From assembly GCA_017467265.1 (NCBI GenBank), contig JAFTSO010000008.1:1-57737 (forward strand): a DNA stretch of 57,737 nt. The letters run 5' to 3'. Shown here one piece after another: positions 7,930 through 21,582 of the stretch (positions are counted from its first letter, which is position 1; each line of letters opens with the position of its first letter). Below the pieces are notes generated by a model, which searched no databases, was not told where the DNA came from, and worked only from the letters and a program-made list of their open reading frames with translations. The DNA comes from Clostridia bacterium (GTDB taxonomy: Bacteria; Bacillota; Clostridia; Christensenellales; Borkfalkiaceae). The position numbers and the translations under genes were made by a program.

Positions 7930-9966
7930 TTAATAGACGATTTCAAACATCGCAAAATCGTCCACCGACAACGCTGCCGAGCATACGCCCGTGCGCTCGT
8001 CATAGGTGAAAGGCACGTCCTTATTTTCGCCGAGATTGCGGAACGTCTTGGGGGCTTTGCCCGATTTCACCGTGAACGGGATTGCGCCGCTCGTCTTTGT
8101 TTCGTCGTATTGCAGATCGCAAAGGGAGATCAAAGACAGGTCGTCGTCTTCAAAGACAACGCACTCGATCGCTTTGCCTGCTTTGCAGTCGTACTTTTTC
8201 ACAACGTTCTCGCCGACGATCTTTTTGAACAGCGTTTTGAACGCTTCGCGTTCGTCGTATTCCAGCTCCGCCGCGCACCAGATCACTTTGCCCTTGCCGT
8301 ACGCGCGTTCAATGAGCGCAGGATGGCTCGTGTTCTGCCAAGGGGGGCAGGAGTGTATGGACGCGAACGTGTCGTTCTGATCGGGAGCGGCATACGGCAA
8401 CGCCACCGTCCCTTTCACCGTGCCCTGCGCACCTTCCAGCAAAGGCAGATAATAGGTCAGGGGCAGGGGGTAGTCCGCGTTGAACTCGCCAAACAACTCT
8501 CCTGCGTTCGCCGTCGGGGAGATATATACCTTTGCGCCCAGCTGCACGCCCGTATGCGGCGCGCTTTCGTACGTTTCGCCAACGCATTTCGCACCGAAAA
8601 ATTCCCGCATCAGCCGTGCGTCCGATCTGCCAGACAGATACAGCGTGCCGCCGTTTTTTACGTAGTCAATGAGCTTTAACGGTTCGTCGTTGTCGAAATC
8701 TTGCAGACAGGGCGCAACGATCATTTGATACTGATCGAGATTGCGCATATTGCCGTTGGAAATCACCGCCGTCGGAATATGTGCCTCGACCAAATTCCGC
8801 ACCGCGCCCACTGCACACGTCTTGTTGTACTTGCTGCCGCCCGTTTTGTCGTACATCGTTTTGCTGTCGAAATACACGGCGACTTCCGCATACAGTTTGC
8901 CCTTGGACATATACCGTTCAAAGGGGATTTGGCGCGCAAAAGCGTTGCCTACGCGCTCGTACACGCGTTTGTCCAGCGTGCCGATCGGATCGACCGCATC
9001 GATGATCAGCGACGCGCCGTGGTGCGCCGCCGTGAGCAAAATTTCCCGTTCCAAGGTCTTTTGCGGCTTGGTAATGGTATGCTCGCGCAACGTCCTGTCG
9101 CAACGGCAAGTCATATACTCAAACGGCTGATTGTTCGTCACGCCGTAGTAATATTTAGCCGCAAACGAGTGCGAATACAGATCGCCGTACAGATCGCCGC
9201 CCGTGAACTCGCACTCGGCGTTGATCCCTTCGGTTGAGCCGCCCAGCCAGTCGCAACCGATGACGGCGGCGTAGTTAAATTCCACCGTCACTTCGGGCAT
9301 TTTTTTGTTGGTATATGCGCGGACAAAGCGCACGAAATCTACCATCCAGTCTTGGCGCGCTTTCACATAACGCAGCCATACGGGGTCGTTCCAATCGGTA
9401 TTTTCGGGCAAATCGTAGCCCGTTTCCGCCTTGAAATTTTGGCGGCAAGATTCGCAATGACAGGGCACTTCCCAGTAGGGCATATCAAAGAACAGCCCGT
9501 CGAGATTTTTGAATTCTCGCGCCAGTTCGTCGATTTGTACCTTGACAAAATCGCGATAGGCAAGATTATTCGGGCAGCACAGCCCGTAGCGTTGACCGTG
9601 ATCGCGCCACGTACTGCCGTCTGCGTACACCATCTCCCACTCGGGGTGGTTTTCGATCGCCCAGTTATTGAAGATCAGGCTGTAATACCCGACGACCTTC
9701 ATACCGCCGTCCTTGCATTTTTTAATCAGCTTTTTGATTTGGTTTTCGCCCTCCAAAAACCGCTTATGTGTGCGCGCGGTTTCGGTGGGATAATTGCAAA
9801 TCCCCACGTGCGATTGCAGATAGATCATCGGGCTCTGAATTTTGACACGGAGCAGGTTTTCGTAATACTCGTCCGCGTCAAACTTCGACAAAAACCGATC
9901 GTCGCAATCGTGAATATGCATATCCGTCAGCTGACGACGATATACGCCTTCGTACCATTTTTTCAT
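7930..9966 (-). CDS. GHL6-type glycosyl hydrolase with beta-galactosidase trimerisation-like domain
   Basis: This 678-residue cytoplasmic protein opens with a TIM-barrel region resembling Hypothetical glycosyl hydrolase 6 (PF14871): LTDMHIHDCDDRF, then GMKVVGYYSLIFNNWA, PEWEMVYADG, and LDGLFFDMPYWEVPCHCESC. The FDMPYW strand end and the Cys-rich CHCESC segment are typical of this group and of the GH151/GH42 neighbourhood. About residues 385-600 look like the class I amidotransferase-like trimerisation domain of GH42 enzymes, and a small beta domain ends the protein. It overlaps the upstream gene by 4 bp, so the two are translationally coupled. It is the last gene of the operon controlled from 12.1 kb. 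Fucosidase or galactosidase activity would be a guess. Confidence 0.65.
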   Translation of the reverse strand: MKKWYEGVYRRQLTDMHIHDCDDRFLSKFDADEYYENLLRVKIQSPMIYLQSHVGICNYPTETARTHKRFLEGENQIKKLIKKCKDGGMKVVGYYSLIFNNWAIENHPEWEMVYADGSTWRDHGQRYGLCCPNNLAYRDFVKVQIDELAREFKNLDGLFFDMPYWEVPCHCESCRQNFKAETGYDLPENTDWNDPVWLRYVKARQDWMVDFVRFVRAYTNKKMPEVTVEFNYAAVIGCDWLGGSTEGINAECEFTGGDLYGDLYSHSFAAKYYYGVTNNQPFEYMTCRCDRTLREHTITKPQKTLEREILLTAAHHGASLIIDAVDPIGTLDKRVYERVGNAFARQIPFERYMSKGKLYAEVAVYFDSKTMYDKTGGSKYNKTCAVGAVRNLVEAHIPTAVISNGNMRNLDQYQMIVAPCLQDFDNDEPLKLIDYVKNGGTLYLSGRSDARLMREFFGAKCVGETYESAPHTGVQLGAKVYISPTANAGELFGEFNADYPLPLTYYLPLLEGAQGTVKGTVALPYAAPDQNDTFASIHSCPPWQNTSHPALIERAYGKGKVIWCAAELEYDEREAFKTLFKKIVGENVVKKYDCKAGKAIECVVFEDDDLSLISLCDLQYDETKTSGAIPFTVKSGKAPKTFRNLGENKDVPFTYDERTGVCSAALSVDDFAMFEIVY

Positions 9967-11153
9967 TTGTTCAAGTTCTCCAAATCAGGGTTCTCTGCAA
10001 AGTGTTTCAGCATCACGATAGGATCGCTCTCGCTCAAATTCTCGATCACAACGCCTTTCTTCGCCGCGTCTGCGCTCACGAAATATTCGTCGTGGGTAAG
10101 CTGACCGTAGCGAATAAGCGAGGGGGTTTCGATGATATGACCGCCGAACGTGCCGTGACCTTGGAGCATAATCATACCGTACGCCGCGCCGTCTTTGATT
10201 GTCACTTTTTGACCAGGATATACGGTAAGGCGCTTTGCGCAAGCCAGCTTACTCTTATAGCAAACCCACTCTTCCTTGTGCGCGTCGTCTTCGTGATCGA
10301 CGATGGGACGCATAAAGCGGTTTTTCTTGAAGTTCGGATCGACGTTGAGATCCCAGTCGATCACGTCCATCAGATAATCAAAATTGCCTTTTTCTTCTTC
10401 GGGACAGTTTTTCCACAGCAAATCTTCGGATACGCATTGACCGCCGTAGAGTACCGATTGATACATCGCGTACACGTCGGAGGCGAACTGCGGCTCGTAC
10501 GTGCAAAGGCTGGCAGGCGCGTGCAACACGCCGGGGGGAACGTCCCAACCCGTGTCCAGCTCAATCTTATACGCCTGCGAATAATCGAGCAGGTGATTGT
10601 CGCCCTTGTGGAAATTTTCCAGACATTTTTTAATCTCGTCTTTCGTGCACTCGGGGTTCAGACCGAAGAACGTGAACGGGAATTCGCCGCCGTGGTTGTT
10701 CACCTGTGCAGGGAAGAAATACATTTCGGGTTTACCTTCTGCGCCCACGCGTTTTGCGTGTTCGTCGCGGTGATGGATATGATGGGGCAAAGGACCTGCG
10801 TTGTCGAAGAATTTCGAGAACATCGGCCACTTGTGGTATTTATCCCACAGCTCGCCGATTACCTGATCTTTCAGCTCGTCCACAACGTCGCGGAGCAGCA
10901 TCTGTTCGCTGCCGTCTTTGGAAACGACGTAGGACAGCCCTTCGTCGTCGGGGGTAGCAGGGCCGTTTTCCGCCCAAGTGGTGGACGCGAACCATCTCTC
11001 GTCAATGCCGCCGCGCTCTAAGCCCAGCACGTAATAATCGTCGGGGTGGAGCTTGATGCGTTTACCGGGGCGGCAGAACGCTCTAGGTACCCACGTGGGT
11101 TTCAAACGCAAAATACCGTTGCCTTCTTTGAATAACTTTTCACTCAATTTCAT
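9963..11153 (-). CDS. Phosphomannose isomerase-like double-cupin protein
   Basis: This 396-residue cytoplasmic protein has features of type I phosphomannose isomerases and related sugar cupins. A His-rich metal site PLPHHIHHRDEHA is followed by GKPEMYFFP with the expected Glu, then GWDVPPGVLHAPAS carrying the later His. A second cupin barrel (GAAYGMIMLQGHGTFGG) lies near the C-terminus. It is probably a metal-dependent sugar isomerase, but the large insertions and low overall likeness mean the substrate need not be mannose 6-phosphate. It lies between a DUF4432 epimerase-like gene (12 bp upstream) and the GHL6 gene (4-bp overlap), which suggests hydrolase, epimerase and isomerase act in sequence on one sugar (inference). 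Confidence 0.55.
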   Translation of the reverse strand: MKLSEKLFKEGNGILRLKPTWVPRAFCRPGKRIKLHPDDYYVLGLERGGIDERWFASTTWAENGPATPDDEGLSYVVSKDGSEQMLLRDVVDELKDQVIGELWDKYHKWPMFSKFFDNAGPLPHHIHHRDEHAKRVGAEGKPEMYFFPAQVNNHGGEFPFTFFGLNPECTKDEIKKCLENFHKGDNHLLDYSQAYKIELDTGWDVPPGVLHAPASLCTYEPQFASDVYAMYQSVLYGGQCVSEDLLWKNCPEEEKGNFDYLMDVIDWDLNVDPNFKKNRFMRPIVDHEDDAHKEEWVCYKSKLACAKRLTVYPGQKVTIKDGAAYGMIMLQGHGTFGGHIIETPSLIRYGQLTHDEYFVSADAAKKGVVIENLSESDPIVMLKHFAENPDLENLNK

Positions 11154-11165
11154 AATCTTTTCTCC

Positions 11166-12050
11166 TTATTGAAAATTGATTTTTATTTGATAGGTTTTGC
11201 TGGTTTTCGCTGCGATTTTTTGCATCGCAAAACGATCGAAACGGGTAAGCGACGGTTCGATACCCAGCGCGTAATCGCCGCTTTTCATACTCTTCCATTG
11301 TAAGGTGACGGGGAAATCCGCCACGTCGTATTCCATTGTGACCGCTACGTCCAAATCGGGGTTATAAAGTCGTACGTTGCCCTGTGAGAGCGTGTGATAA
11401 TACACGTCCTCGTCGTTGTTTTCGATGGGTGCGGTGATTTGCAGCATCTCCGCTTGGCGTTTTTTCGCGATCTCCGTCAGCGGCTCGCTGACAATCGCAG
11501 GCACGTCCAGCTGCAAGCACTCGTCCAAGAACGGATAGCCGTAATTGATATGGTACAACAGGACGTATTCGCCCTCGGAAAAATCGGCGTTTTCGATCGT
11601 GTCGCAAATTTCGAGTGAACGCTCCGTGAGCTTATAGGCGCGGTGGAGTACGAGATGTTTACCAAACAGCGCGCTGTCTTTCACGTCGCCGCAGACGTAG
11701 ATAGCGCCGTCCTTTTCGTAATGGTAGGCGTTGTCTGCCTTGGTGTAATGCAGGCTGCCGTGGACGGGCTTATTTGCCACGCACCCCGATACGTTGTCCA
11801 TTCCGCACGTGTATAAAAATCCGCCTTCGAAATTGCCCGTGAAATCGCGCGTGCCGTCGTTCAAGCCGTTCTTGCTCAAAAAAGACAGGTTGACGCCCTT
11901 ATAATTCGCCCAAACGATATCCAGCGCGTTGTCCTTGTTGAACAGTACTTCGAGTGCGCCGTGGCGCACCAAAATGCAGCGTTTGTCCCCGAAAACGACG
12001 TCTTGTGCAAAGCAAACTTGCGACTTATTCCCCAACTTTCTCTCGTCCAT
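11166..12050 (-). CDS. DUF4432 / aldose 1-epimerase-like protein
   Basis: This 294-residue protein shows the galactose-mutarotase-like fold of the DUF4432 group. Visible segments are VRHGALEVLFNKDNALDIVWANYKGVNLSFLS, FLYTCGMDNVSG, HGSLHYT, VLLYHINYGYPFLDE and GIEPSL. The histidines in HGSLH and HINYG and the late Glu in GIEPS are at positions used for sugar binding and catalysis in this superfamily. It is the first gene of the three-gene minus-strand operon, about 43 nt from the predicted transcription start. A mutarotase or epimerase role on the sugar released by the downstream hydrolase is inferred. Confidence 0.7.
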   Translation of the reverse strand: MDERKLGNKSQVCFAQDVVFGDKRCILVRHGALEVLFNKDNALDIVWANYKGVNLSFLSKNGLNDGTRDFTGNFEGGFLYTCGMDNVSGCVANKPVHGSLHYTKADNAYHYEKDGAIYVCGDVKDSALFGKHLVLHRAYKLTERSLEICDTIENADFSEGEYVLLYHINYGYPFLDECLQLDVPAIVSEPLTEIAKKRQAEMLQITAPIENNDEDVYYHTLSQGNVRLYNPDLDVAVTMEYDVADFPVTLQWKSMKSGDYALGIEPSLTRFDRFAMQKIAAKTSKTYQIKINFQ

Positions 12051-12099
12051 AGCCTTTCCTTTTCGTCCGCGCTGGCGCGGAAAATGCTTATTTTTAGTC

Positions 12100-12163
12100 A
12101 GTATAGCACGCCTTATCTATAAATAATAGATAAAAATATACATAAAAACATTGTTTTTGTATA
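12100..12163 (-). promoter_or_regulatory. Operator plus activator-dependent promoter of the 12.05-7.93 kb operon
   Basis: A 27-bp imperfect palindrome at 12137-12163 (core AAAAACA-N-TGTTTTT, arms TATAC and GTATA) is followed on the minus strand, after 31 bp, by TATACT (12105-12100). The -35 position holds TATTAT, far from consensus, as expected for an activated promoter. The 27 bases recur exactly at 18638-18664 with the same 31-bp spacing. The PocR/AraC regulator encoded next door is the likely reader (inference). Confidence 0.75.
12113..12133. repeat. Perfect palindrome in the divergent promoter region
   Basis: TTATCTAT, AAATA, ATAGATAA: an 8-bp perfect inverted repeat over the -35 region of the minus-strand promoter, next to the 27-bp operator. 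It may be a second binding site. Confidence 0.45.
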
Positions 12164-12179
12164 AAATTTGTGATAAAAT
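12151..12179 (+). promoter_or_regulatory. Leaderless promoter of the PocR/AraC gene
   Basis: TTGTTT (12151-12156), 17 bp, TAAAAT (12174-12179), then exactly 6 nt to the ATG. The -35 overlaps the 27-bp operator, so the regulator may repress or tune its own gene. Confidence 0.65.
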
Positions 12180-12185
12180 AGGGGT

Positions 12186-13016
12186 ATGGATATTAAATAC
12201 AACAAAGAAAAAATCGAGAAAGTGTTGAAGAACGTGTACGAGCTGTTAAAATCGCCCGTCAGCGTTTTTGATCAGGATTTTCAGTTTTTGGTGTCCTATC
12301 CGCCCGAGGGGTATCTCACCGATTTTTGCCGTATGATACGACAATCGCCCGAGCGCGTGGAAAAATGCCGTCAATCGGACGAGGAATCGTGCGCGCTGTG
12401 CAAAAAGACCAACCGCACGTTTTCCTATCTCTGCCACGCCGGCATACGGGAAACGATCACGCCCATCCGTTTTGAGAAGACGATTATAGGGTATATCCTG
12501 TTCGGCGAATACCGTATCGAAGGCAGGACAAAGGACGTACGTGCGTATGCCGCCGAGAACGGTATGGACGCGGACGCGCTGCAAAGGGCATATGACCAGC
12601 TGACCATACTCACCGAAAAGCAGGTGGCGGCAACGTGTGAGATTTTGCAGTCTTGTATTTTGCAATTTTGGCTCTCGGACGCGATTTTGCTCAAAGAAAA
12701 CGAGCTGGTGGAGCGGCTGAAAAAATTTATCGACGAGAACTTGCACGAGCCGTTGACTGCGGAAGATCTGTGCAAAAATTTCTTTTTGAATCGCCAACAG
12801 CTGTATGCAGTATTCCGCGAGAGTTTTCATGCGCCTGTAAAACAGTACGTTTTAGAGCGAAAAATCGCGCGTGCAAAGCAGCTACTTTCCACTACGGAGC
12901 TGTCGGTGACGGCTGTTGCTGAGCGCACGGGCTTTACCGATTATAACAATTTTATCCAGCGGTTTAAGAAGATCACGGGGAGCACGCCCCTGCAATACCG
13001 TAAGCGCAGAAAATAA
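12186..13016 (+). CDS. PocR-domain AraC-family transcription regulator
   Basis: This 276-residue regulator has a PocR-type sensory domain at about residues 5-155. It includes SPVSVFDQDFQFLVSYP and a cysteine set (CRQSDEESCALCKK, then YLCHAG) typical of the group, which binds small diols, sugars or other metabolites. The C-terminal 100 residues carry two AraC helix-turn-helix motifs: LTAEDLCKNFFLNRQQLYAVF and ELSVTAVAERTGFTDYNNFIQRFKK, with the TGFTDYNNF signature. It is divergent from the operon at 12.05 kb with a shared operator between them. The ATG is predicted to be the first transcribed codon and no ribosome site precedes it. I infer that it activates the divergent operon and the 18.7-kb cluster. 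Confidence 0.85.
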   Translation: MDIKYNKEKIEKVLKNVYELLKSPVSVFDQDFQFLVSYPPEGYLTDFCRMIRQSPERVEKCRQSDEESCALCKKTNRTFSYLCHAGIRETITPIRFEKTIIGYILFGEYRIEGRTKDVRAYAAENGMDADALQRAYDQLTILTEKQVAATCEILQSCILQFWLSDAILLKENELVERLKKFIDENLHEPLTAEDLCKNFFLNRQQLYAVFRESFHAPVKQYVLERKIARAKQLLSTTELSVTAVAERTGFTDYNNFIQRFKKITGSTPLQYRKRRK

Positions 13017-13019
13017 AAA

Positions 13020-13064
13020 AAGAACGTCGTCACGACCCGTATAGGGGGTGACGGCGTTTTTTGT
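13020..13064. terminator. Bidirectional terminator between the two convergent AraC genes
   Basis: An 11-bp stem (13023-13033 with 13048-13058) is flanked by an A-run on the left and GTTTTTTGT on the right. Confidence 0.85.
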
Positions 13065-13078
13065 CTGTGTATAAGCCG

Positions 13079-13993
13079 TTATTCGCTGTCCTGGTGCAGT
13101 ACGGAATTGTTCTTTCTAAACTCCGCAGGCGTGATATTAAAATACTTTTTGAACAGTGAGTGGAAGTGACTAGGGGATTCAAAATTTAGCTCGTTCGTGA
13201 TCTCCATAAGCGTCATATCGGTGAGCGAAAGCAGGTCTTTTGCGTATTGCAATTTCGTACTGTTGACGTACTGTGTGATCGTACAATGCATATGCTTTTT
13301 GAAAATACGCGTCAGCTGTGGATAGCTATACGGCAGCGCCTGTTGTGCTTCCTTAATCTGTTCGCTGGTGATCAGCGGATTGTTCAGCTGTTGGATGAGC
13401 GGCTTTAAGACGGACGGAATGTTCTGCCCTTTTTGCCATTGTTCAATGAATTTCAGCAAAATCGTCGAAAAGATGATGTTGCATTGTTGTTCGGTGTAGG
13501 GGGTACTCTGGTCCTTCAACGTTTGGATGTCCAAGAACATATTCGTGAATTTTTCCAGCGAGTTAGGGGACAGGGTGAAATAAAGGGGCTGCGGTGCATA
13601 GCAAATCTCGTCATACATCGTGGGAGAATACATATCCAGAAGTTTGCGTACGTAATCATCTTGCGCGACGATACAGATCGCTTGATATTGATTTTTTACG
13701 CGATCGGGATAGAAAAAGGCGTGTTTGTCCTGTGGCCCGATAATGCACGCCATACCAGCCGTCATCATCTTTTCTTTGCCGTTGATGCGGTGTAAGATCT
13801 GGTCGTTGAGCACGATCGCCACTTCCCAATGCGTTTGCGCGTGATACAGGGGATACTCAAAGTTTACCCAGTAGAACGAGGTGTTCGCATTTTTCCACGG
13901 CGAGCCTTGCTCGAAGGTGCTGACTTTCGGACCTTCAGTTTCGGAAATATGCCCGACGTAGGGATAAATTTTGTCGTTGGTTTTGCTTTCCAT
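13079..13993 (-). CDS. AraC-family transcription regulator with cupin sensory domain
   Basis: The true start is taken as the ATG at 13993, giving 304 residues. A longer reading to 14128 would begin with Phe-rich, non-domain sequence upstream of the promoter. The N-terminal half is a cupin-type sugar-sensing domain (HAQTHWEVAIVLNDQILHRING, then GMACIIGPQDKHAF). The C-terminal 100 residues hold the two AraC helix-turn-helix motifs, ending LNFESPSHFHSLFKKYFNITPAEFRK. A perfect TTGACA, 17 bp, TATAAT promoter lies upstream with only 6 nt to the ATG, so the transcript is predicted to be leaderless. It is divergent from the 14.37-kb hydrolase operon, whose promoter carries direct-repeat operator site B. 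I infer that this protein reads the three direct-repeat sites in the window. Confidence 0.85.
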   Translation of the reverse strand: MESKTNDKIYPYVGHISETEGPKVSTFEQGSPWKNANTSFYWVNFEYPLYHAQTHWEVAIVLNDQILHRINGKEKMMTAGMACIIGPQDKHAFFYPDRVKNQYQAICIVAQDDYVRKLLDMYSPTMYDEICYAPQPLYFTLSPNSLEKFTNMFLDIQTLKDQSTPYTEQQCNIIFSTILLKFIEQWQKGQNIPSVLKPLIQQLNNPLITSEQIKEAQQALPYSYPQLTRIFKKHMHCTITQYVNSTKLQYAKDLLSLTDMTLMEITNELNFESPSHFHSLFKKYFNITPAEFRKNNSVLHQDSE

Positions 13994-13999
13994 ACGTTC

Positions 14000-14028
14000 A
14001 TTATAACATTGAAAAAAACAATTGTCAA
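14000..14028 (-). promoter_or_regulatory. Leaderless promoter of the second AraC gene
   Basis: On the minus strand: TTGACA (14028-14023), 17 bp, TATAAT (14005-14000) with extended TG, then 6 nt to the ATG at 13993. Confidence 0.85.
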
Positions 14029-14253
14029 TACATTTTTTTGAAATTTTTGAGAACAGAAAATTTTGGAAGGAAAAAATTGACTTGGAGAAAAAACGCAAAA
14101 ACGGCAAAAAAAATCGTAAAAAATGCAAACGAAAACGGGGGTGAATTTGGTAAAAAAAGCCATTTTTCCTTTATAAAGGAAAATAAAGCGCATTTTTGAA
14201 AAAGAAAAAAAGACAAGTAAAAAAAGCGAACGAAGAAATTAAAAATACAAATT
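14029..14253. other. AT-rich divergent intergenic region, no gene seen
   Basis: Very A/T-rich spacer between the second AraC gene and operator site B. It holds a perfect 20-bp palindrome centred on TTTATAAA at 14164-14183. I see no coding potential. Confidence 0.5.
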
Positions 14254-14284
14254 TTGCAATTTTAGAGCACTTTTTTGCAATTTT
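14254..14284. promoter_or_regulatory. Direct-repeat operator, site B
   Basis: TTGCAATTTT at 14254-14263 and 14275-14284, exactly 21 bp apart with AGCAC between, starting 17 bp upstream of the -35 box. The adjacent divergent AraC gene makes this the anchor site for that regulator. Confidence 0.75.
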
Positions 14285-14291
14285 TTAGTAG

Positions 14292-14320
14292 TTGACAACA
14301 AGGTGTATATATGTTATACT
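14292..14320 (+). promoter_or_regulatory. Promoter of the 14.37-17.88 kb operon
   Basis: TTGACA (14292-14297), 17 bp, TATACT (14315-14320) with extended TG. Predicted transcription start about 14327, leader about 39 nt. Confidence 0.8.
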
Positions 14321-14365
14321 ATGAAATATGCAGTAAAATCGCGTAAAACGTATGGAGAGAAGTAT

Positions 14366-16159
14366 ATGCAGGCAAAGATCGTCAAAGAACAAGGCAATTT
14401 GATGCTCGACGTAAACGGCGAGCGTATTGTGCCTGCGGCGTATATGAGCTATTTGGAAGACAATGCCGATTACGCAGGCTTTCAAAAAGCTGGGTATGAG
14501 CTGTTTTGCGCTTGCGTATATATGGGTGATTGCCCGATTAATGAATTTTCAGGAATACGTCCGTTCAACGATCATATTTGGAAAGCGCGCGAGCAATACG
14601 ATTTCGCGCCCTTGTACGAGAGTGTACGCAAAATCGTGGGGGACGGTACGCGACGAACGTATATTATGCTGCGCGTCAATCTCAACGCGCCGCAATGGTG
14701 GCGCAAGGAAAACCCTGAGGAGTTGACGGAGAATAGCGACGGCGGCGTGTATATGCAATCGATTTTTTCCGAAAAATGGAAAACGGACGCAAAGACGTTT
14801 TTGACGAAACTTTGTCAATACGTACGCTCGTTTGAGTTTGCCGAGCACGTGATCGCGATACAGCCCGCGGCGATGCAGACGGAAGAGTGGCTGGCGATGT
14901 GTACGGGCACGGGTGCGCTCGATTATTCGTTGCCTGCCAAAGCGGCGTTCGGAAAATGGCTGGAAGAGAGGTACGGAAAACCGTTCGAACAAATACCTAT
15001 GCCCCAGCGTGAGCTCGTTTGTGCGCACGATCGTGCTCCGTTTGCAGACGGAGAGAACGGGGGGTATTTTGCCGAGTATATGCGCTTTTATAACGACGGA
15101 TTTGCGCGGACGATACAAGAGTTTGCGGCGTTTACCAAGGAGGCGTGTCGCGGTGAACTGTTGGTAGGCACGTTTTACGGGTATGTAGGGCAGACTCCGT
15201 GCGATCGCGGACACCACGCCGTCTCGTTGCTCTTGCAAGATAAGAACATCGACTTTTTCGCTTCGCCGTTCGCGTATGCGGACGCTCGCCAAACGGCAAA
15301 GGACTGGTACTATCACGGACCGATGGAGAGTGCGGCGCAGGCAGGCAAACTCTGGTTTTTAGAGGCGGACGTGCGTACGTGCAAAACGAAATATCTCGCC
15401 GACACCAACCCCGAGCTGATGTCGGGCGAACGGACGGTGGCGTATCACCGTGCCCCCGTGTTCAAAGGACCTGATACTGAACAGGAAAGCCTGTGGGTGA
15501 TGCTCCGTTCCTTTGGTAAGGTCCTCTGTTCAAAAAACGCCTTTTGGTGGTTTGATATGTGGGGCGGTTGGTACGATTCGCCTGCGATGATGACACTCGT
15601 AAAAAGGGCGTTAGATACGTACCGTGTCGCGTTCAATGCAAAAATTGACGGGGTGAGCAGACTGGCGGTCGTATTGAACGATCGGGCATATTTTGGGCGT
15701 TCCAACGCTTATTTTGCGGCGACGACATCTGCTCAGCTGGAAGAATTAGGGTATTTGGGCGCACCGTACGATTTGTATTTGGCGTGCGCTATGACGGCCG
15801 AAGTACAGGCGCGCTATGACGGAGTGCTCTATCTCGCTGATCAAGAATCGAAGAGTAAGGGCAATACTTTAGTATTGAAAAACGGTGAGCGCGTAGAGAG
15901 CGACGAGCGTTTTTCTTCGGACGAGCTGCGCGCGCATTTACAGACCGTCGGTACGCATATTTATAGCGGCGGCAATATCGTCTATGCGAACGCGCGTTTT
16001 GTGGCGTTGACGGCAAAGGACGGGGGACGTGTCTTGTTGACGATGCCTTTTGTGTGTGTAATCAAGGCGTTTTCGAGCGGCGCGGAATATGAGGGCAAGG
16101 ACTTTGCTTTTGATATGCAGAGCAATCAAACGGAACTGTTTGAAATCATAAGGAGATAA
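14366..16159 (+). CDS. Clan GH-A-like glycoside hydrolase (beta-galactosidase-like)
   Basis: I place the start at ATG 14366, which has GGAGAGA 5 nt upstream; an earlier ATG at 14303 lies before the predicted transcription start. The 597-residue product has no signal peptide. It looks like a TIM barrel of the GH42/GH35 neighbourhood: RIVPAAYMSYL, GYELFCACVYMGD at strand 1, RTYIMLRVNLNAPQWW at strand 3, VIAIQPAAMQTEEWLA where an acid/base Glu would sit, KLWFLEADVRTC where a nucleophile Glu would sit, then AFWWFDMWGGWYDSP. The C-terminal part is an amidotransferase-like domain. It is the first gene of an operon with murQ and a sugar kinase (1-bp gap). That suggests the substrate contains an amino sugar, but the specificity cannot be read from sequence. 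Confidence 0.6.
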   Translation: MQAKIVKEQGNLMLDVNGERIVPAAYMSYLEDNADYAGFQKAGYELFCACVYMGDCPINEFSGIRPFNDHIWKAREQYDFAPLYESVRKIVGDGTRRTYIMLRVNLNAPQWWRKENPEELTENSDGGVYMQSIFSEKWKTDAKTFLTKLCQYVRSFEFAEHVIAIQPAAMQTEEWLAMCTGTGALDYSLPAKAAFGKWLEERYGKPFEQIPMPQRELVCAHDRAPFADGENGGYFAEYMRFYNDGFARTIQEFAAFTKEACRGELLVGTFYGYVGQTPCDRGHHAVSLLLQDKNIDFFASPFAYADARQTAKDWYYHGPMESAAQAGKLWFLEADVRTCKTKYLADTNPELMSGERTVAYHRAPVFKGPDTEQESLWVMLRSFGKVLCSKNAFWWFDMWGGWYDSPAMMTLVKRALDTYRVAFNAKIDGVSRLAVVLNDRAYFGRSNAYFAATTSAQLEELGYLGAPYDLYLACAMTAEVQARYDGVLYLADQESKSKGNTLVLKNGERVESDERFSSDELRAHLQTVGTHIYSGGNIVYANARFVALTAKDGGRVLLTMPFVCVIKAFSSGAEYEGKDFAFDMQSNQTELFEIIRR

Positions 16160-16160
16160 T

Positions 16161-16967
16161 ATGAAACACACGGAGCAAAGAAATCCCAATACGATGGGGC
16201 TGGATAAAATGACCGCTTTGGAAGCGGTGACGGCGATGAATAACGAGGATAAGACGGTGGCGTATGCTGTGGAAAAGGCTCTGCCCCAGATCGCGAACGC
16301 GGTGGAGCTGGTCGTGGACAGCTTTCAAAAGGGCGGCAGGCTTATCTACGTTGGCGCAGGTACGTCGGGGCGTTTGGGTGTGTTGGATGCGAGCGAGTGT
16401 CCTCCGACGTTCGGCGTTCCGTACGATCAGGTGATTGGGGTGATCGCAGGCGGTCGCGACGCGGTATTTAAGGCGGCGGAAGGCGCGGAAGACAGCGGCG
16501 AATACGGCGCAAAGGATATGCAGAACGTCGGTGTATCGAACAAGGACACGGTGGTGGGTATTTCCGTTTCGGGCGACGCCGCATATATCTACGAATCACT
16601 CCGCTATGCAAAGGCGCAGGGCGCGCATACCGTCGCGCTTACGGGCAATTCCGAAAATCGCATTTCCGAAATGGCACAAGTGACGATTGTCACGGACACG
16701 GGTGCGGAGGCTTTGACGGGTTCTACCCGTTTGAAAGCAGGAACGGCGCATAAAATGGTGCTGAATATGCTCTCGACCGTAGCGATGGTGCGTACGGGTA
16801 AAGTCATCGAAAATCTGATGGTAAACGTCGCGCCGACGAATATCAAATTATTCGACCGAGCGGCGCGTATTTGCGACACGCTCACGGGGATGGGCGTGGA
16901 AAAAGCGAAAGCGGAGCTTGCTAAAGGACGTTCTATCGTGGACATCGTAGGAGAGTACGAAAAATGA
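16161..16967 (+). CDS. murQ: N-acetylmuramic acid 6-phosphate etherase
   Basis: This 268-residue SIS-domain enzyme cleaves the lactyl ether of MurNAc 6-phosphate to give GlcNAc 6-phosphate. Signature segments are TEQRNPNTMGLDKMTALEAV at the N-terminus, GGRLIYVGAGTSGRLGVLDASECPPTFG, DTVVGISVSGDAAY, and the ALTGSTRLKAGTAHKMVLNM block. The catalytic Glu is the one in DASECPPTFG (family knowledge). It is somewhat shorter than the usual roughly 300 residues, lacking much of the helical C-terminus. Its ATG follows the hydrolase stop by one base, and its own stop overlaps the next start (ATGA), so all three genes are translationally coupled. Confidence 0.9.
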   Translation: MKHTEQRNPNTMGLDKMTALEAVTAMNNEDKTVAYAVEKALPQIANAVELVVDSFQKGGRLIYVGAGTSGRLGVLDASECPPTFGVPYDQVIGVIAGGRDAVFKAAEGAEDSGEYGAKDMQNVGVSNKDTVVGISVSGDAAYIYESLRYAKAQGAHTVALTGNSENRISEMAQVTIVTDTGAEALTGSTRLKAGTAHKMVLNMLSTVAMVRTGKVIENLMVNVAPTNIKLFDRAARICDTLTGMGVEKAKAELAKGRSIVDIVGEYEK

Positions 16968-17881
16968 GGTGCTATCTTGGCGTGGACGGCGGCGGTACGA
17001 AAACGGAAGCGGTCGTCACCGACGAACGGGGCGTGCTCGTGGCGCGAAAACGCGTCGGCAGCTCCAACCCCAACGACGTCGGTAAAGAGAATATGATTGC
17101 CCTGCTCTGTGCGTTGACGGCGGAGCTTACTCCTGCGGACGCGTCACGCATCGACGTGGGTATGGGACTGTCGGGTTTGAGCTTTGCAGGTTGTAAAGAT
17201 GAACTGATTGCCGCGCTCCAAAACGTGGACAAGGTAGGGGACGTGGACGTGTGTAGCGACGTGCAAATCGCGCTCGATTCGGCGTATGACGGCGACGGGT
17301 GTATCGTGATTACGGGCACGGGCGGCGTCGGATACCTGCGTAAAGACGGCGAACATATTTTGGTGGGCGGCGGAGGATATATGATCGATTCGCTGTTCAG
17401 CGGCTACGATTTCGGGCGCGAAGCGCTCAATGCAGTGCTCTCCGAAACGGACGGCAGGGGCGCAAAAACGGCGATCACGCCGTTGGTATTGCAAAAGGCG
17501 GATATGCCGATGCAAGAGATTGTAAAAACGGTATATCTGCGTGGCAAAGCGTACGTGGCGTCTTTCGCGCCTACTGTGTTCGAGGCGTACGAACGGGGGG
17601 ATGCGGTTGCGATCGAGATTGTAAAACGGCGTATGGCGGAGCTGGAAACGTTGCTGTGGGGGATTTACCGTCGCTACGGTGTACCCCGTTGCGAAATCAC
17701 GGTGTTTGGCGGCTTAAACCGCCGCGTGCAGGAGCTCGTTGAGTATTTGAGCGCGGAACTCCGTGAAAAAGTCACGCTCGTTCTGCCCCGACGCCCCGTT
17801 GTGTACGGTGCGCTGAAACGCGCACGCGGCGAGGGGGACGAGGATTTTTTGGCAACGTTTTTGCAAGGGTATTGTGAATAG
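16964..17881 (+). CDS. BadF/BadG-type sugar kinase (GlcNAc/MurNAc kinase-like)
   Basis: This 305-residue kinase of the ASKHA fold opens with the phosphate-1 motif LGVDGGGTKTEAVV and carries GSSNPNDVG, VCSDVQIALDS with the catalytic-Asp segment, VITGTGGVGYL (adenosine/phosphate loop) and GGGGYMIDSLFSGYDFGREAL. This is the BadF/BadG/BcrA/BcrD family that includes N-acetylglucosamine kinase and the clostridial MurNAc/GlcNAc kinase MurK. The 4-bp overlap with murQ supports a role in phosphorylating MurNAc and GlcNAc before or beside the etherase step. A terminator follows directly. Confidence 0.75.
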   Translation: MRCYLGVDGGGTKTEAVVTDERGVLVARKRVGSSNPNDVGKENMIALLCALTAELTPADASRIDVGMGLSGLSFAGCKDELIAALQNVDKVGDVDVCSDVQIALDSAYDGDGCIVITGTGGVGYLRKDGEHILVGGGGYMIDSLFSGYDFGREALNAVLSETDGRGAKTAITPLVLQKADMPMQEIVKTVYLRGKAYVASFAPTVFEAYERGDAVAIEIVKRRMAELETLLWGIYRRYGVPRCEITVFGGLNRRVQELVEYLSAELREKVTLVLPRRPVVYGALKRARGEGDEDFLATFLQGYCE

Positions 17882-17901
17882 GATAAAAACGGAATAAAAG
17901 G

Positions 17902-17933
17902 TCGGTGTACGGGTGTGTGCGCCGATTTTTTTT
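17902..17933 (+). terminator. Rho-independent terminator after the kinase gene
   Basis: A 9-bp stem (17902-17910 with 17917-17925) is followed by eight T residues. Confidence 0.85.
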
Positions 17934-18204
17934 GTGTCATAACCCATATTGATTGCCAAACGAAATGAGATTATTGAGAAGAAGAAAAACACACCCGAAA
18001 AGTTCGCTATCACCGAGCTGTTTTGCATATCGACAAAGCGTGTGCTATCTGCGATGTGACAATTTTGCTTTTTACTTTGTAAAAAAACGCACAAAAAGAC
18101 GTGCAATTTTGAACAATGTTCACAAAAAAATGGAAGAAAAAAAGAGCGGATTTTTTCACAAAAAACTGTTAAAAAATCTCAAAAAACCCGATATTTTCAA
18201 GAAC
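17934..18204. other. AT-rich spacer, no convincing gene
   Basis: The 270 bases between the terminator and operator site C contain short open frames only, none with a ribosome site. I see no feature here. Confidence 0.5.
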
Positions 18205-18235
18205 TTGCAATTTTACAGCATATTTTTGCAATTTA
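18205..18235. promoter_or_regulatory. Direct-repeat operator, site C
   Basis: TTGCAATTTT at 18205-18214 and TTGCAATTTA at 18226-18235, 21 bp apart with AGCAT between, starting 16 bp upstream of the -35 box. Same layout as sites A and B. Confidence 0.75.
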
Positions 18236-18241
18236 TCTGTA

Positions 18242-18270
18242 ATGACAAGAGCTAAATTCTGTGATATAAT
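18242..18270 (+). promoter_or_regulatory. Promoter behind operator site C
   Basis: ATGACA (18242-18247), 17 bp, TATAAT (18265-18270). It begins a leader of more than 400 nt before the first gene at 18723. Confidence 0.75.
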
Positions 18271-18276
18271 AAAGAA

Positions 18277-18440
18277 AAATTTTCATAGGAAAAAGTGCAA
18301 CTCGCTGGTAAGGAGCTTGAATAATATCCTTTTTTGAATAGGTTTTCATATGTCCTTATTAGGGAATAAAAAACCATTTTGAGTTTTCCTTGGGGATAGG
18401 TCAAAAAACGGTGCGTTTCTACTAAAAAACGAGTTGAGTT
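18277..18440 (+). ncRNA. Candidate structured leader RNA
   Basis: From the site C promoter the transcript contains a 7-bp long-range closing stem (CAACTCG 18298-18304 with CGAGTTG 18430-18436). Inside it is a hairpin with GGTTTT/AAAAACC arms and a TCC/GGGA tip near 18341-18374. I do not recognise a known riboswitch class. No terminator is obvious at its end. It may be a small RNA or a cis-acting leader for the 18.7-34.5 kb cluster. Confidence 0.35.
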
Positions 18441-18462
18441 CTTATGGGACGTATGTTATAAT
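18434..18462 (+). promoter_or_regulatory. Second promoter inside the leader
   Basis: TTGAGT (18434-18439), 17 bp, TATAAT (18457-18462) with extended TG. The -35 overlaps the 3' arm of the preceding closing stem. Confidence 0.6.
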
Positions 18463-18468
18463 TAAGAT

Positions 18469-18545
18469 ACCAATAAGCACAAAGCGGAAAGACGTCCACC
18501 AAAATAGGGGTGGAGTGCCGCTATTTTGTCGTTCTTTGTGCGTGT
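18469..18545 (+). ncRNA. Candidate structured RNA element
   Basis: From the second leader promoter, GCACAAAG (18477-18484) pairs with CTTTGTGC (18534-18541). It encloses a TCCACC/GGTGGA hairpin and a possible GCGG/CCGC helix. The GGGTGG...CCGC stretch recalls a T-box antiterminator, but no stem I precedes it. Function unknown. Confidence 0.35.
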
Positions 18546-18637
18546 GTATGCGTGTATGCATAATGCGAGGCGACTGCGCGAGCGATAGCATGCAAACGCG
18601 AACGACGGCAGGCGGAAACAAGTAAAAATCGGTTTTT

Positions 18638-18701
18638 TATACAAAAACAATGTTTTTATGTATAATTTGACCTATTTTGGGCGCGGTGTGCGTGCTAATA
18701 T
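18638..18701 (+). promoter_or_regulatory. 27-bp operator and activator-type promoter of the 18.72-kb gene
   Basis: The 27-bp palindrome at 18638-18664 is identical to that at 12137-12163 read on the opposite strand. After 31 bp comes TAATAT (18696-18701), preceded in both promoters by GCGTGC. The -35 position is TATTTT, poor as at the other copy. Predicted transcription start is about 18708. Confidence 0.7.
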
Positions 18702-18722
18702 AAAGATAGGAGAGAGTAGGCG

Positions 18723-19631
18723 ATGATAAAAAAGTACCCGATCACGGGAACGTTTATCGATGAGATCACGTACGATATTCCGGCGTCCAACTGGACGAAC
18801 GAACAATGGGCTGCGGATCTCGATCATATGAAAGCGGTGGGCATAGATACGGTTATCATAATGCGCGGCGTTTTCTATGACAAATGTATCTATCCTTCCA
18901 AAATTTTCCCGACGTTGAAAGAAGAAGGGGAAGATTTTGCAGGATTCATTATGGAAGAGGCTGCAAAACGGGATATGCAGGTATTCTTGGGTATGTACAT
19001 CAAGGATCTGACGTGGAATTGCGGCGATTACCTGTACGAGCTCAAACAAAACAAAATTTATATGGACGAAGTGTTAGAGCGGTACAAGGATATGCCTGCG
19101 TTTAAGGGCTGGTATATCCCCCATGAAACGGGCAGCAATATCTTCAACATTAAGGAAACGATGGGTGGACTTGCGAAGATGTGCAAGGACAGAACTCCCG
19201 ACAAAAAGGTGTTCATCAGTCCGTTCTTCCGTGGACAAAACCTGTACCCCGATCCGATGTCGCCCGAGCTGACGGCGGACGTATGGAACAATATTTGGAA
19301 AGATTGCGGTAAAGAAATCGACATCTGCGCTTTCCAGGACGGTACGACAAGGCTGTGCGATTACGAGGAGTATCTCAAAACGATCAAGCAGGTGACGGAC
19401 GAACACAACATCAGCCTTTGGGCGAACGTAGAAACGTTCGAACGTGACGTACGTTCAATGTTCTTCCCGATTCCGTTCGACATATTGCGGAGAAAGATTC
19501 AGATCGCAGAGCGGTACGTAGAAAAGTGCATCACGTTTGAATTTTCGCACTTTTTGAGCCCACAGTCTATCTTCCCTTCTGCGCGGAACTTGAATACGTT
19601 GTACCGCAACTACTACGAAAACAGAAAATAA
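18723..19631 (+). CDS. DUF4434 TIM-barrel protein (putative glycosidase)
   Basis: This 302-residue protein has no signal peptide. It matches the DUF4434 group (PF14488): PITGTFIDEITYDIPASNW at the start, WAADLDHMKAVGIDTVIIMRG, AAKRDMQVFLGMY, then FKGWYIPHETGSN with a candidate acid/base Glu, KKVFISPFFRG, and ISLWANVETFERD with a second candidate catalytic Glu. The two Glu residues at strand ends resemble clan GH-A enzymes, so a retaining glycosidase is plausible but unproven. It has an AGGAGAG site and shares the 27-bp operator with the GHL6 operon. It leads the transporter and giant-exoprotein cluster. Confidence 0.7.
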   Translation: MIKKYPITGTFIDEITYDIPASNWTNEQWAADLDHMKAVGIDTVIIMRGVFYDKCIYPSKIFPTLKEEGEDFAGFIMEEAAKRDMQVFLGMYIKDLTWNCGDYLYELKQNKIYMDEVLERYKDMPAFKGWYIPHETGSNIFNIKETMGGLAKMCKDRTPDKKVFISPFFRGQNLYPDPMSPELTADVWNNIWKDCGKEIDICAFQDGTTRLCDYEEYLKTIKQVTDEHNISLWANVETFERDVRSMFFPIPFDILRRKIQIAERYVEKCITFEFSHFLSPQSIFPSARNLNTLYRNYYENRK

Positions 19632-19663
19632 CGGCGAGCTTTTTATGAAATCGGCGTTGTGAT

Positions 19664-19699
19664 AGCCCCGCGGGGCTGTTTGTCGTGAGAACGACAAAC
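19664..19699. repeat. Two adjacent hairpins before the solute-binding gene
   Basis: AGCCCCGCGGGGCT (19664-19677) is directly followed by a 9-bp stem with GAGA loop (19678-19699). There is no T-tract. They may be RNA-processing or stability elements separating the DUF4434 gene from the more strongly needed binding-protein gene. Confidence 0.5.
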
Positions 19700-19752
19700 G
19701 AAAATTCTTACATCGAAAACAAAAAATATTATATAAGAAGAGGAAAAATGCT

Positions 19753-21582
19753 ATGAAAAAAATCAAGAAACTCTTAGTTGGTGCAATGGCACTTATGATG
19801 GCGTTCAGCACGGTAGCGTGTGGCGGTGGCGGCGGCAACGGCGGCAACGGCGGCACGTCTAGCAGCTCTGCGCAGGGCGGCGGCGTAAGCTCGGAAACGA
19901 GCAGCGGCGAAAATGAAAACAGTTCGGAAACGAGCAGTAACGGTGGTGGCGAAGGCACTGAGTACACCCCTCAAAACCCTTATACGTTGAACGTGTACAG
20001 CTTTACGGGCGGTTATGGTGAAGACTGGCTCAACGCGTTGGAAGAACGTTATAAGAAAGAACGTGCAGGCGACGAAATTTGGGTAAACGGCGTACAATAC
20101 GACGGTGTTACGTTCAAGAACACGAAAAAGAAAGATACGTTGTCGGTTTTGGCACCGAGAGGCGAACAATACGACGTATGGTTTGAAGAACAGGTTTTGT
20201 TCAATCAATTCGTCAAAGAAAACGTGTTTAAGGATATGACGGACGTATTGACTAGCGAAAACCCTTACGAACCGGGTAAGACGCTGGAAAGCAAGATGTC
20301 CGAAGAACAGAAAGACTACTATATGAGAGACGGTAAATATTACGGGGTTCCGCATTACGCAGGCTACGTAGGTATCGTTTATAATAAGGCAATGTTTGAT
20401 CGCCAAAAAGCGTATTTTGCAAAGGATTACGACAAGAGCTATTTGGCAGAAAATCCTATTTTGTGTACGGTTCTTGATTTAGAAGATCCGCGCACGCCCG
20501 GTCCCGACGGTATCGAAGGTACGTTAGACGACGGTTTGCCTACGACGTATGCGGAATTCTATGCGCTGTGCGATGTATTGTCGTCGACGAACAAGCCTAT
20601 GTCTTGGTCGGGTAAACACAGACACAGCTACCTTGGCTGGTTCTTGCAATCTCTTTCGGCGAGCAACGAAAGTTTGAGCCAAGCTATTTTGAACTATACG
20701 TTCGACGGAACGTTGGATAGCTTGATTTCGGTGACGGAAGAAGTGGACGGTAGCCCTGAAATCACCGCGTTGGACGACGTTGAAATCGACGCGAAGGAGA
20801 ACGGCTGGAAAGTTGCGGCGCAACGTGGTAAATATTATGCGCTCGACTTCTTGGAAACGATCGTGGATAACGGCTGGTACACGGCAAACTCTTTCTTGGA
20901 CGTAGACGAGCAGACGGCTGCACAAATTGCGTTCGTAGAAGGCAACGCAATTAACTCTACCGAACGTCCTGCAATGTTGGTCGATGGTTCTTGGTGGGCA
21001 ATGGAAGCAAAGGCTTCTTTCTTGGCACAAGAACAGGGTGGTGTAGAAAATCCGAAAGATAACTACGCTTGGTTCCCTCTGCCTTGTATTGACGAAGCGG
21101 ACGCAGCAGCAAGAGCAGACGCTATCAAAAACGGCGGTAAAGGGTATAACTTGACGGACGTAATGAATTCGCTTTGCTTTATTGGCGCGCAGGTTTCCGA
21201 CGACGTTTATAAAATTGCAAAAGACTTCGTTCAGTTTGCATACACCGACGAATCGTTGGCAGAATTCTCTATTATCACCGACACTACGAAGGCTGTACAG
21301 TACACGATGAATGATGCGCAGTTGGCACAGATGTCCGCATACGGCAGATCCCTTTTGGATATGCAGAGTAAGGCGAATATTGTGACTGTATTCTCGAAGA
21401 ACGAATTTTTCCAAAAGAATGAAACGATGTTGGTTGACTATAAGACTCTCTTCGATGCAAATATCGGCGGTAAAACCTATCAAATTCCCGTAAACGAATT
21501 TAAGAAGGGCGTTAGCGCGACGACGTATTTTAACGGCTTAGTTGCAATGTATGAATATAGATGGACCAGCTTGATGGTTTAA
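19753..21582 (+). CDS. ABC transporter extracellular sugar-binding lipoprotein
   Basis: This 609-residue protein has a lipoprotein signal with Cys23 (FSTVAC), then a Gly/Ser/Glu-rich linker to about residue 75. A family 1-type solute-binding domain follows: YTLNVYSFTGGYGEDWLNALEERY, YYGVPHYAGYVGIVYNKAMFD, SWSGKHRHSYLGWF, AMLVDGSWWAMEA. It is longer than the usual 400-450 residues, with insertions in both lobes that suggest a bulky oligosaccharide ligand. An acidic calcium-like loop (DPRTPGPDGIEGTLDDG) is also present. It is followed by a hairpin and two permease genes, so it is the capture subunit of this importer. Confidence 0.85.
   Translation: MKKIKKLLVGAMALMMAFSTVACGGGGGNGGNGGTSSSSAQGGGVSSETSSGENENSSETSSNGGGEGTEYTPQNPYTLNVYSFTGGYGEDWLNALEERYKKERAGDEIWVNGVQYDGVTFKNTKKKDTLSVLAPRGEQYDVWFEEQVLFNQFVKENVFKDMTDVLTSENPYEPGKTLESKMSEEQKDYYMRDGKYYGVPHYAGYVGIVYNKAMFDRQKAYFAKDYDKSYLAENPILCTVLDLEDPRTPGPDGIEGTLDDGLPTTYAEFYALCDVLSSTNKPMSWSGKHRHSYLGWFLQSLSASNESLSQAILNYTFDGTLDSLISVTEEVDGSPEITALDDVEIDAKENGWKVAAQRGKYYALDFLETIVDNGWYTANSFLDVDEQTAAQIAFVEGNAINSTERPAMLVDGSWWAMEAKASFLAQEQGGVENPKDNYAWFPLPCIDEADAAARADAIKNGGKGYNLTDVMNSLCFIGAQVSDDVYKIAKDFVQFAYTDESLAEFSIITDTTKAVQYTMNDAQLAQMSAYGRSLLDMQSKANIVTVFSKNEFFQKNETMLVDYKTLFDANIGGKTYQIPVNEFKKGVSATTYFNGLVAMYEYRWTSLMV

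Follow-up and report, generated by a model that had tools for sequence, protein, structure and literature searches.

Which regulator reads a 27-base-pair (bp) near-palindrome that stands, letter for letter, in front of two separate gene groups, and what does it do there? The question arises from a 57,737-nucleotide stretch of an uncultured Clostridia bacterium of the Borkfalkiaceae (GenBank assembly GCA_017467265.1, contig JAFTSO010000008.1, positions 1 to 57,737; hereafter the window), in which the 27-mer TATACATAAAAACATTGTTTTTGTATA is found exactly at 12137-12163 (+) and 18638-18664 (-). The first copy lies between a gene encoding a PocR-domain protein of the AraC type and a divergent DUF4432-cupin-GHL6 operon, and the second lies upstream of a DUF4434 gene. 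Our analysis makes it probable that the 27-mer is the operator of the PocR/AraC protein, which would activate the DUF4432-cupin-GHL6 operon, limit its own promoter and, in this organism, also act at DUF4434. The proposal is built on the site itself, its conservation, its spacing, its co-occurrence with PocR and a recognition helix common to the proteins that accompany it. The central features are the following.

12137..12163, + strand: candidate operator, copy 1; exact 27-mer in the divergent promoter shared by the PocR/AraC gene (+) and the DUF4432-cupin-GHL6 operon (-)
18638..18664, - strand: candidate operator, copy 2; exact 27-mer upstream of DUF4434, oriented to its -10 box as copy 1 is to its own
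12186..13016, + strand: PocR-domain AraC-type regulator, the proposed reader (Pfam PocR 5.8e-31, HTH_18 9.4e-20)

The Site Occurs at Two Promoters of the Genome

The identity of the two copies, claimed in a first-pass annotation of the window, was borne out: they match exactly on opposite strands, and the identical stretch reaches 30 bp (TTT plus the 27-mer). When the genome (1,389,405 bases in 53 contigs, 79% complete) was searched by pattern at up to three mismatches, these two places alone were recovered, both at promoters, with none for the reversed-pattern control, and 100 dinucleotide shuffles of the window gave no match at the same tolerance. This supports the annotation's view of the element as an operator rather than a dispersed repeat. 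Its description as a palindrome holds in part: the palindrome is present, but it is imperfect and symmetric only over the heart AAAACA-A-TGTTTT.

Weaker candidates were set aside. One place in the genome with one mismatch of 17 (G000:C16:8546) falls inside a permease-like gene and was taken as chance, and places at two mismatches of the 17 set letters are background, the reversed control giving at least as many in G048, G168 and G284. Two further places, G000:C10:3197 and G088:C11:12308, carry another palindrome, CTAAAACTTTGTTTTAG, and belong to something else; in both genomes the gene that follows directly carries a GDSIT motif and, by eye, resembles an SGNH hydrolase, and CTAAAACTTTGTTTTAG is probably the operator of some other regulator. 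An Rfam search of 11900-19800 gave no match.

The Site Accompanies Close PocR Homologs

PocR homologs were found at E <=1e-30 in 65 of 301 family genomes, with identity of at least 48% in six of them (G000, G088, G296, G048, G094 and G114), and the exact 17-mer AAAACATTGTTTTYGTA stood beside PocR in all six. A search of 398 family genomes, a larger set than the 301 for which PocR status is known, recovered the exact 17-mer in seven genomes at eight places, the reversed control giving 0: six beside a close PocR, copy 2 at 18638, and one inside an unrelated open reading frame of G342. Within the genus, the exact 17-mer was present in 4 of 57 genomes, and a site with at most one mismatch in 9.

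The same association was seen in a second, named collection of 74 loci, gathered by the conserved 396-amino-acid (396-aa) operon gene. The core TACRAAAACAATGTTTT was found beside the gene, with at most two mismatches of 20, in all eight loci whose PocR is 48-84% identical (L071, L075, L076, L077, L079, L080, L082 and L111), five of which (L071, L075, L076, L079 and L111) are contigs of the close-PocR genomes of the family set. The other 66 loci gave nothing at three mismatches or fewer, their best matches having 4-7, and in 59 of them the sequence before the start of the 396-aa gene extends for 300 bp or more (in 56 for 1 kb or more). PocR-like proteins at these siteless loci reached at most 38% identity; 12 of the 66 loci, in which both the 396-aa gene and GHL6 are present and the upstream sequence spans 1 kb or more, had no PocR match over 200 aa. 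In G168 the site, at one mismatch of the 17 set letters, lies between the 396-aa gene and an internally deleted PocR gene (130-aa frame). This stretch (L047 1-804, G168:C13), in which the operator is retained and the middle of PocR lost, points to either a decaying regulator or an assembly fault.

The constant partners of the site were PocR, the 396-aa gene and a GHL6 homolog (35-86% identical), while within the available stretches DUF4432 was absent beside five of the eight sites and a second AraC gene was absent beside six. Six of the eight site-bearing named records come from deer, goat or sheep gut, as titled. The 396-aa protein is unusually conserved: its identity was 90-98% in six of these loci and 80% and 82% in the remaining pair, against 48-84% for PocR at the same eight loci. 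All eight site-bearing proteins that reach the second helix-turn-helix (HTH), the window's included and the L076 protein, cut by the contig end, left out, share the recognition helix DYNNFIQRF; N255, Q258 and R259 occurred in none of 25 PocR-like proteins from siteless loci. In a tree, nine site-bearing PocR proteins fell into one clade (support 100/99). That the site follows the close PocR among relatives favors the adjacent PocR/AraC gene as the best reader, as had been proposed from the window alone.

A Fixed Distance to the -10 Box

The geometry first noted at the two copies was confirmed at both: 31 bp separate the 27-mer from a -10 box that is preceded by GCGTGC, and the -35 hexamer position is occupied by CTATTA or CTATTT, both poor. 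The promoter elements are listed below.

12100..12105 (read 12105-12100), - strand: -10 box TATACT of the DUF4432 operon, 31 bp from copy 1
12125..12129, - strand: CTATT at the -35 position, 21 bp downstream of the core TGTTT; a -35 substitute or a weak second half-site
18672..18676, + strand: CTATT at the matching place of copy 2, from the promoter alignment
18696..18701, + strand: -10-like box TAATAT of DUF4434, 31 bp from copy 2
12160..12165, + strand: TATAAA, a possible -10 for transcription of the PocR gene itself; it pairs with TATACA (12137-12142), and the 17-bp spacer between them contains the operator heart; read from sequence

Eleven promoters were aligned (both window copies, the eight named loci and G168, whose contig C13 is L047). 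In 10 of the 11 the -10 box stood at +38, counted from the 20-mer core, and in L077 at +37, and the orientation of the site to the box was uniform in all 11. Over nine diverse promoters, the mean -10 score at that offset was 7.6, against 3.0 (standard deviation (sd) 0.95) over offsets 15-89. The sequence that separates site and box has diverged, copy 1 matching seven distant promoters at 7-17 of 31 positions, with a chance level of about 8.5 of 31 as estimated by shuffling the pair of window copies. Because the core has not diverged along with this stretch, selection seems to preserve both the core and the spacing.

Measured from the -10 box, the dyad would lie at about -58 and the partly conserved CTATT at about -36 to -32, its middle three columns being kept in 7-8 of the nine diverse promoters. 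TAnnA (+23 to +27) and CTATT (+34 to +38) sit 21 bp past like-placed letters of the core. When the arrangement of two direct half-sites known for the AraC/XylS type, the proximal one near the -35, was looked for, lag 21 was the best of 33 lags (0.47 versus a mean of 0.32, sd 0.06), a value reached in 0 of 5000 shuffles, but the second box is degenerate and lag 24 comes close. These figures are suggestive of a weak second half-site formed by CTATT and TAnnA, as in AraC-type tandem sites.

A Model for PocR Control

We propose that PocR would activate the DUF4432-cupin-GHL6 promoter from a position at about -58, since this promoter has a good -10 box and a poor -35; the weak second half-site (TAnnA...CTATT, 21 bp further) may overlap the -35. 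On the PocR strand the site lies between TATACA and TATAAA, and PocR would probably limit its own transcription there; the pair TATACA-17-TATAAA (12137-12165) was not among the hits of the promoter scan. PocR would be triggered by a ligand of its PocR domain; this is probably a small polyol or a product of sugar breakdown. Copy 2, with the same orientation and spacing, would probably add DUF4434, and possibly the transporter-like genes that follow it, to the regulon, and PocR control at DUF4434 would come on top of that by a second AraC protein. The earlier reading of the element as an activator operator thus fits the fixed -10 distance with a poor -35, while activation itself we infer from the arrangement of the promoter.

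A more specific version of the model, which we put forward tentatively and do not rate as probable, has one near-palindrome in two roles, repressing the regulator's own promoter from within the spacer and activating the divergent operon from -58, with a copy of matching spacing newly acquired, in one species, by a neighboring glycosidase/transport operon already under another AraC protein.

Several observations weigh against PocR activation through this site. All site-bearing PocR proteins belong to one clade, so the co-occurrence counts are not independent and reflect one origin, long conserved, and the shared helix may mark descent only. The site adjoins the PocR gene, so that one deletion can remove both, as L072 and L073 suggest. 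Among -10-like offsets the second best was +15, which is the CTATT element itself (mean 6.3), and the second box is so degenerate that, against the consensus, lag 21 scored 0.46 and lag 24 0.44. Each window copy also encloses a promoter-like pair that faces the operon and fits repression, and the start predicted from TAATAT coincides with the ribosome-binding sequence of DUF4434; these last two points bear on the alternatives discussed below.

L072 and L073 lack PocR and its site, and in both the second AraC gene immediately precedes DUF4432; it looks as though a deletion had passed control of the operon to the other regulator.

Copy 2 Upstream of DUF4434

The proposal that PocR links the GHL6/cupin/DUF4432 operon to DUF4434 is probable for this organism, where copy 2 is present, but no counterpart of the link was found in the two nearest relatives having both genes. 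DUF4434 lies near PocR in G088 (93% identical) and G296 (87%), and the 445 and 861 bp upstream of it held no site better than shuffled sequence. In G296 a degenerate site had been suspected by eye but was rejected: its best match has 5 mismatches of 20, whereas shuffled sequences come as low as 4 (mean 6.6). For G048 and G125, inspection by eye showed no site before DUF4434. Most simply, copy 2 was probably gained recently in this species, perhaps through copying of copy 1; loss in both relatives is possible. As far as the relatives show, the DUF4434 link is specific to this species and looks like an addition made at species level.

Copy 2 might instead be a chance or non-functional fragment of copy 1, with copy 1 alone a working operator. 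This would fit the missing counterparts in the relatives, the predicted start that lands on the ribosome-binding sequence, and the flank columns +19 to +26: variable elsewhere, they are the same in both copies at 8 of 8 positions. Yet CTATT, GCGTGC and a -10-like box stand at equal distances outside the identical stretch, and the site-to-box stretches of the two copies agree at 16 of 31 positions against 8.5 expected (a fraction of 0.00135 of 20000 shuffles), although without GCGTGC the agreement falls to 10 of 25 against 7.4 expected (0.13), and the -10 box alone matches at 3 of 6 against 2.5 (0.50). The 60 bases before the site agree at chance level (14 of 60 versus 12.8). We hold a non-functional copy 2 to be rather unlikely.

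Repression as an Alternative

PocR could also act as a repressor, the operator heart filling the 17-bp spacer of a TATACA...TATAAT or TATACA...TATATT pair and blocking RNA polymerase in both directions, at copy 2 perhaps as a roadblock in a leader transcribed from a promoter farther upstream. The enclosed pairs, which the first-pass annotation did not contain, are TATACA-17-TATAAT at copy 2 (18638-18666) and TATACA-17-TATATT at copy 1 (12163-12135, - strand). Copy 2 moreover lies about 370 bp downstream of a distal ATGACA-17-TATAAT promoter, and a further pair, TTGAGT-17-TATAAT, is present at 18434-18462 (five pairs in the region versus 2.4 in shuffles). However, L077, L111 and L047 have a poor inner -10-like hexamer, whereas 10 of the 11 promoters retain the outer -10 at +38. 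In Caldicellulosiruptor bescii, four of four single-component AraC regulators studied had sites upstream of the promoter and were called activators (PMC8579813). A repressor role therefore appears unlikely, and activation through the outer promoter is the reading that we retain.

A Second AraC Protein and the Distal DUF4434 Promoter

The distal DUF4434 promoter (ATGACA-17-TATAAT, 18242-18270) lies about 450 bp before the start codon, is conserved among relatives and is preceded by a repeat of its own.

18206..18234, + strand: 21-bp direct repeat TGCAATTT..TGCAATTT, before the distal DUF4434 promoter

The 21-bp repeat recurs at 2724-2752 and 14255-14283 in the window and at G000:C17:4138, and the 30-letter motif, at up to three mismatches, was found at four places in the genome, three of them within the window (control 0). 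The motif also stands beside homologs of the second AraC protein in G147, G232 and G094, and upstream of DUF4434 in G088 and G296. This co-occurrence suggests that the direct repeat is probably the operator of the AraC protein encoded at 13079-13996; if this protein does read it, PocR would be a second input at DUF4434.

The possibility that the 13079-13996 protein reads the palindrome is very improbable. It is encoded close by, occurs together with the site in G000, G088 and G296, and in G094 the site is accompanied by a 58% homolog on another contig. But G048 and G114 have the site without a close homolog (best 25% and 30%), G232 and G147 have a 65-67% homolog and no exact site (one place at one mismatch in G232), and the protein tracks a different motif, the direct repeat.

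The places of the repeat would outline a second, larger regulon, with a lipoprotein-like gene (2836), a gene at 14369 accompanied by MurQ and a kinase-like gene, DUF4434 together with the transporter-like genes, and a sugar-isomerase-like gene (C17), these names being given partly by eye. The leader between the distal promoter and DUF4434 contains a stable hairpin at 18468-18550 (z -3.1; 1 of 200 shuffles as good); a similar stretch was seen by eye in G088, and it has no Rfam match.

That the 27-mer is a dispersed repeat or the end of a mobile element, as 27 identical bp at two places might indicate, has next to no probability, this being already refuted for the searched 79% of the genome by the two promoter places alone; the position beside PocR is moreover kept in 10 genomes, the window's included.

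The Regulator and Its Neighbors

The PocR/AraC protein has 276 aa. Its PocR domain (PF10114) scored 107.9 bits against a cut-off of 23.9, and the double HTH typical of the AraC/XylS family was found at its C-terminus (HTH_18 9.4e-20, HTH_AraC 5e-13). The genes concerned by the two copies are the following.

11166..12050, - strand: DUF4432 protein, first gene of the divergent operon (Pfam DUF4432 1.2e-47)
9963..11153, - strand: 396-aa protein, distantly mannosephosphate isomerase-like (weak match to 1zx5, E 0.0014), called "cupin" at first pass
7930..9966, - strand: GHL6 or GH42-like glycosidase (Pfam GHL6 2e-17, Glyco_hydro_42M 1.3e-11)
18723..19631, + strand: DUF4434 protein (Pfam 3.4e-52), a homolog of a solved putative alpha-L-fucosidase (4h41, E 1.6e-56)

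Neither Pfam nor NCBIfam gave a match for the 396-aa protein. DUF4434 is followed by transporter-like genes: the first has only sub-cut-off matches to carbohydrate binding proteins, and two further ones are permease-like.

Relation to Known Systems

At araBAD/araC of Escherichia coli, AraC acts at a divergent promoter, with the I2 half-site overlapping the -35, and regulates its own gene. The locus studied here resembles it in its divergent promoter and, as proposed, in a half-site over the -35 and in autoregulation, and differs from it in sensor domain and site sequence. In Salmonella, PocR controls pdu and cob. Among the eight neighboring proteins scanned here, none belonged to pdu or cob (GHL6, GH43, DUF4432, DUF4434, AraC or no match). 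Unlike the Salmonella protein, the present regulator has glycosidase-like target genes, and the whole protein reached 94.6 bits on the NCBIfam model of the propanediol regulator PocR (NF047788), whose cut-off is 500. The two share a PocR sensory domain joined to an AraC HTH, and a likely role as activator, Salmonella PocR being described as a 1,2-propanediol-responsive activator (PMC11264322).

The AraC regulators of carbohydrate uptake loci in C. bescii, such as HemR and PecR2 (PMC8579813), offer a closer parallel. These too are local AraC-type genes beside presumed sugar targets, with sites upstream of the promoter from whose position activation was deduced. Their sites are tandem repeats with large spacers (21- or 32-bp periodicity was searched), whereas here one strong near-palindromic box is followed by a degenerate second one at 21 bp, and the sensor, a PocR domain, is unlike those described there. 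No paper on the site was among the literature matches listed for PocR/AraC, DUF4432/DUF4434, AraC inverted repeats and the motif, most subscription papers being outside the coverage.

The result is a new operator and a small regulon of a known type. It gives an uncharacterized PocR/AraC regulator of uncultured Clostridia a concrete candidate operator and a two-target regulon, and suggests a functional link among GHL6, the mannosephosphate-isomerase-like protein, DUF4432 and DUF4434. Copy 2 offers an operator gain that can be compared with near relatives without it; if the dual-role version of the model, with its newly acquired copy, is true, this locus would show a regulon in the act of growing, through the capture of an operator at one promoter.

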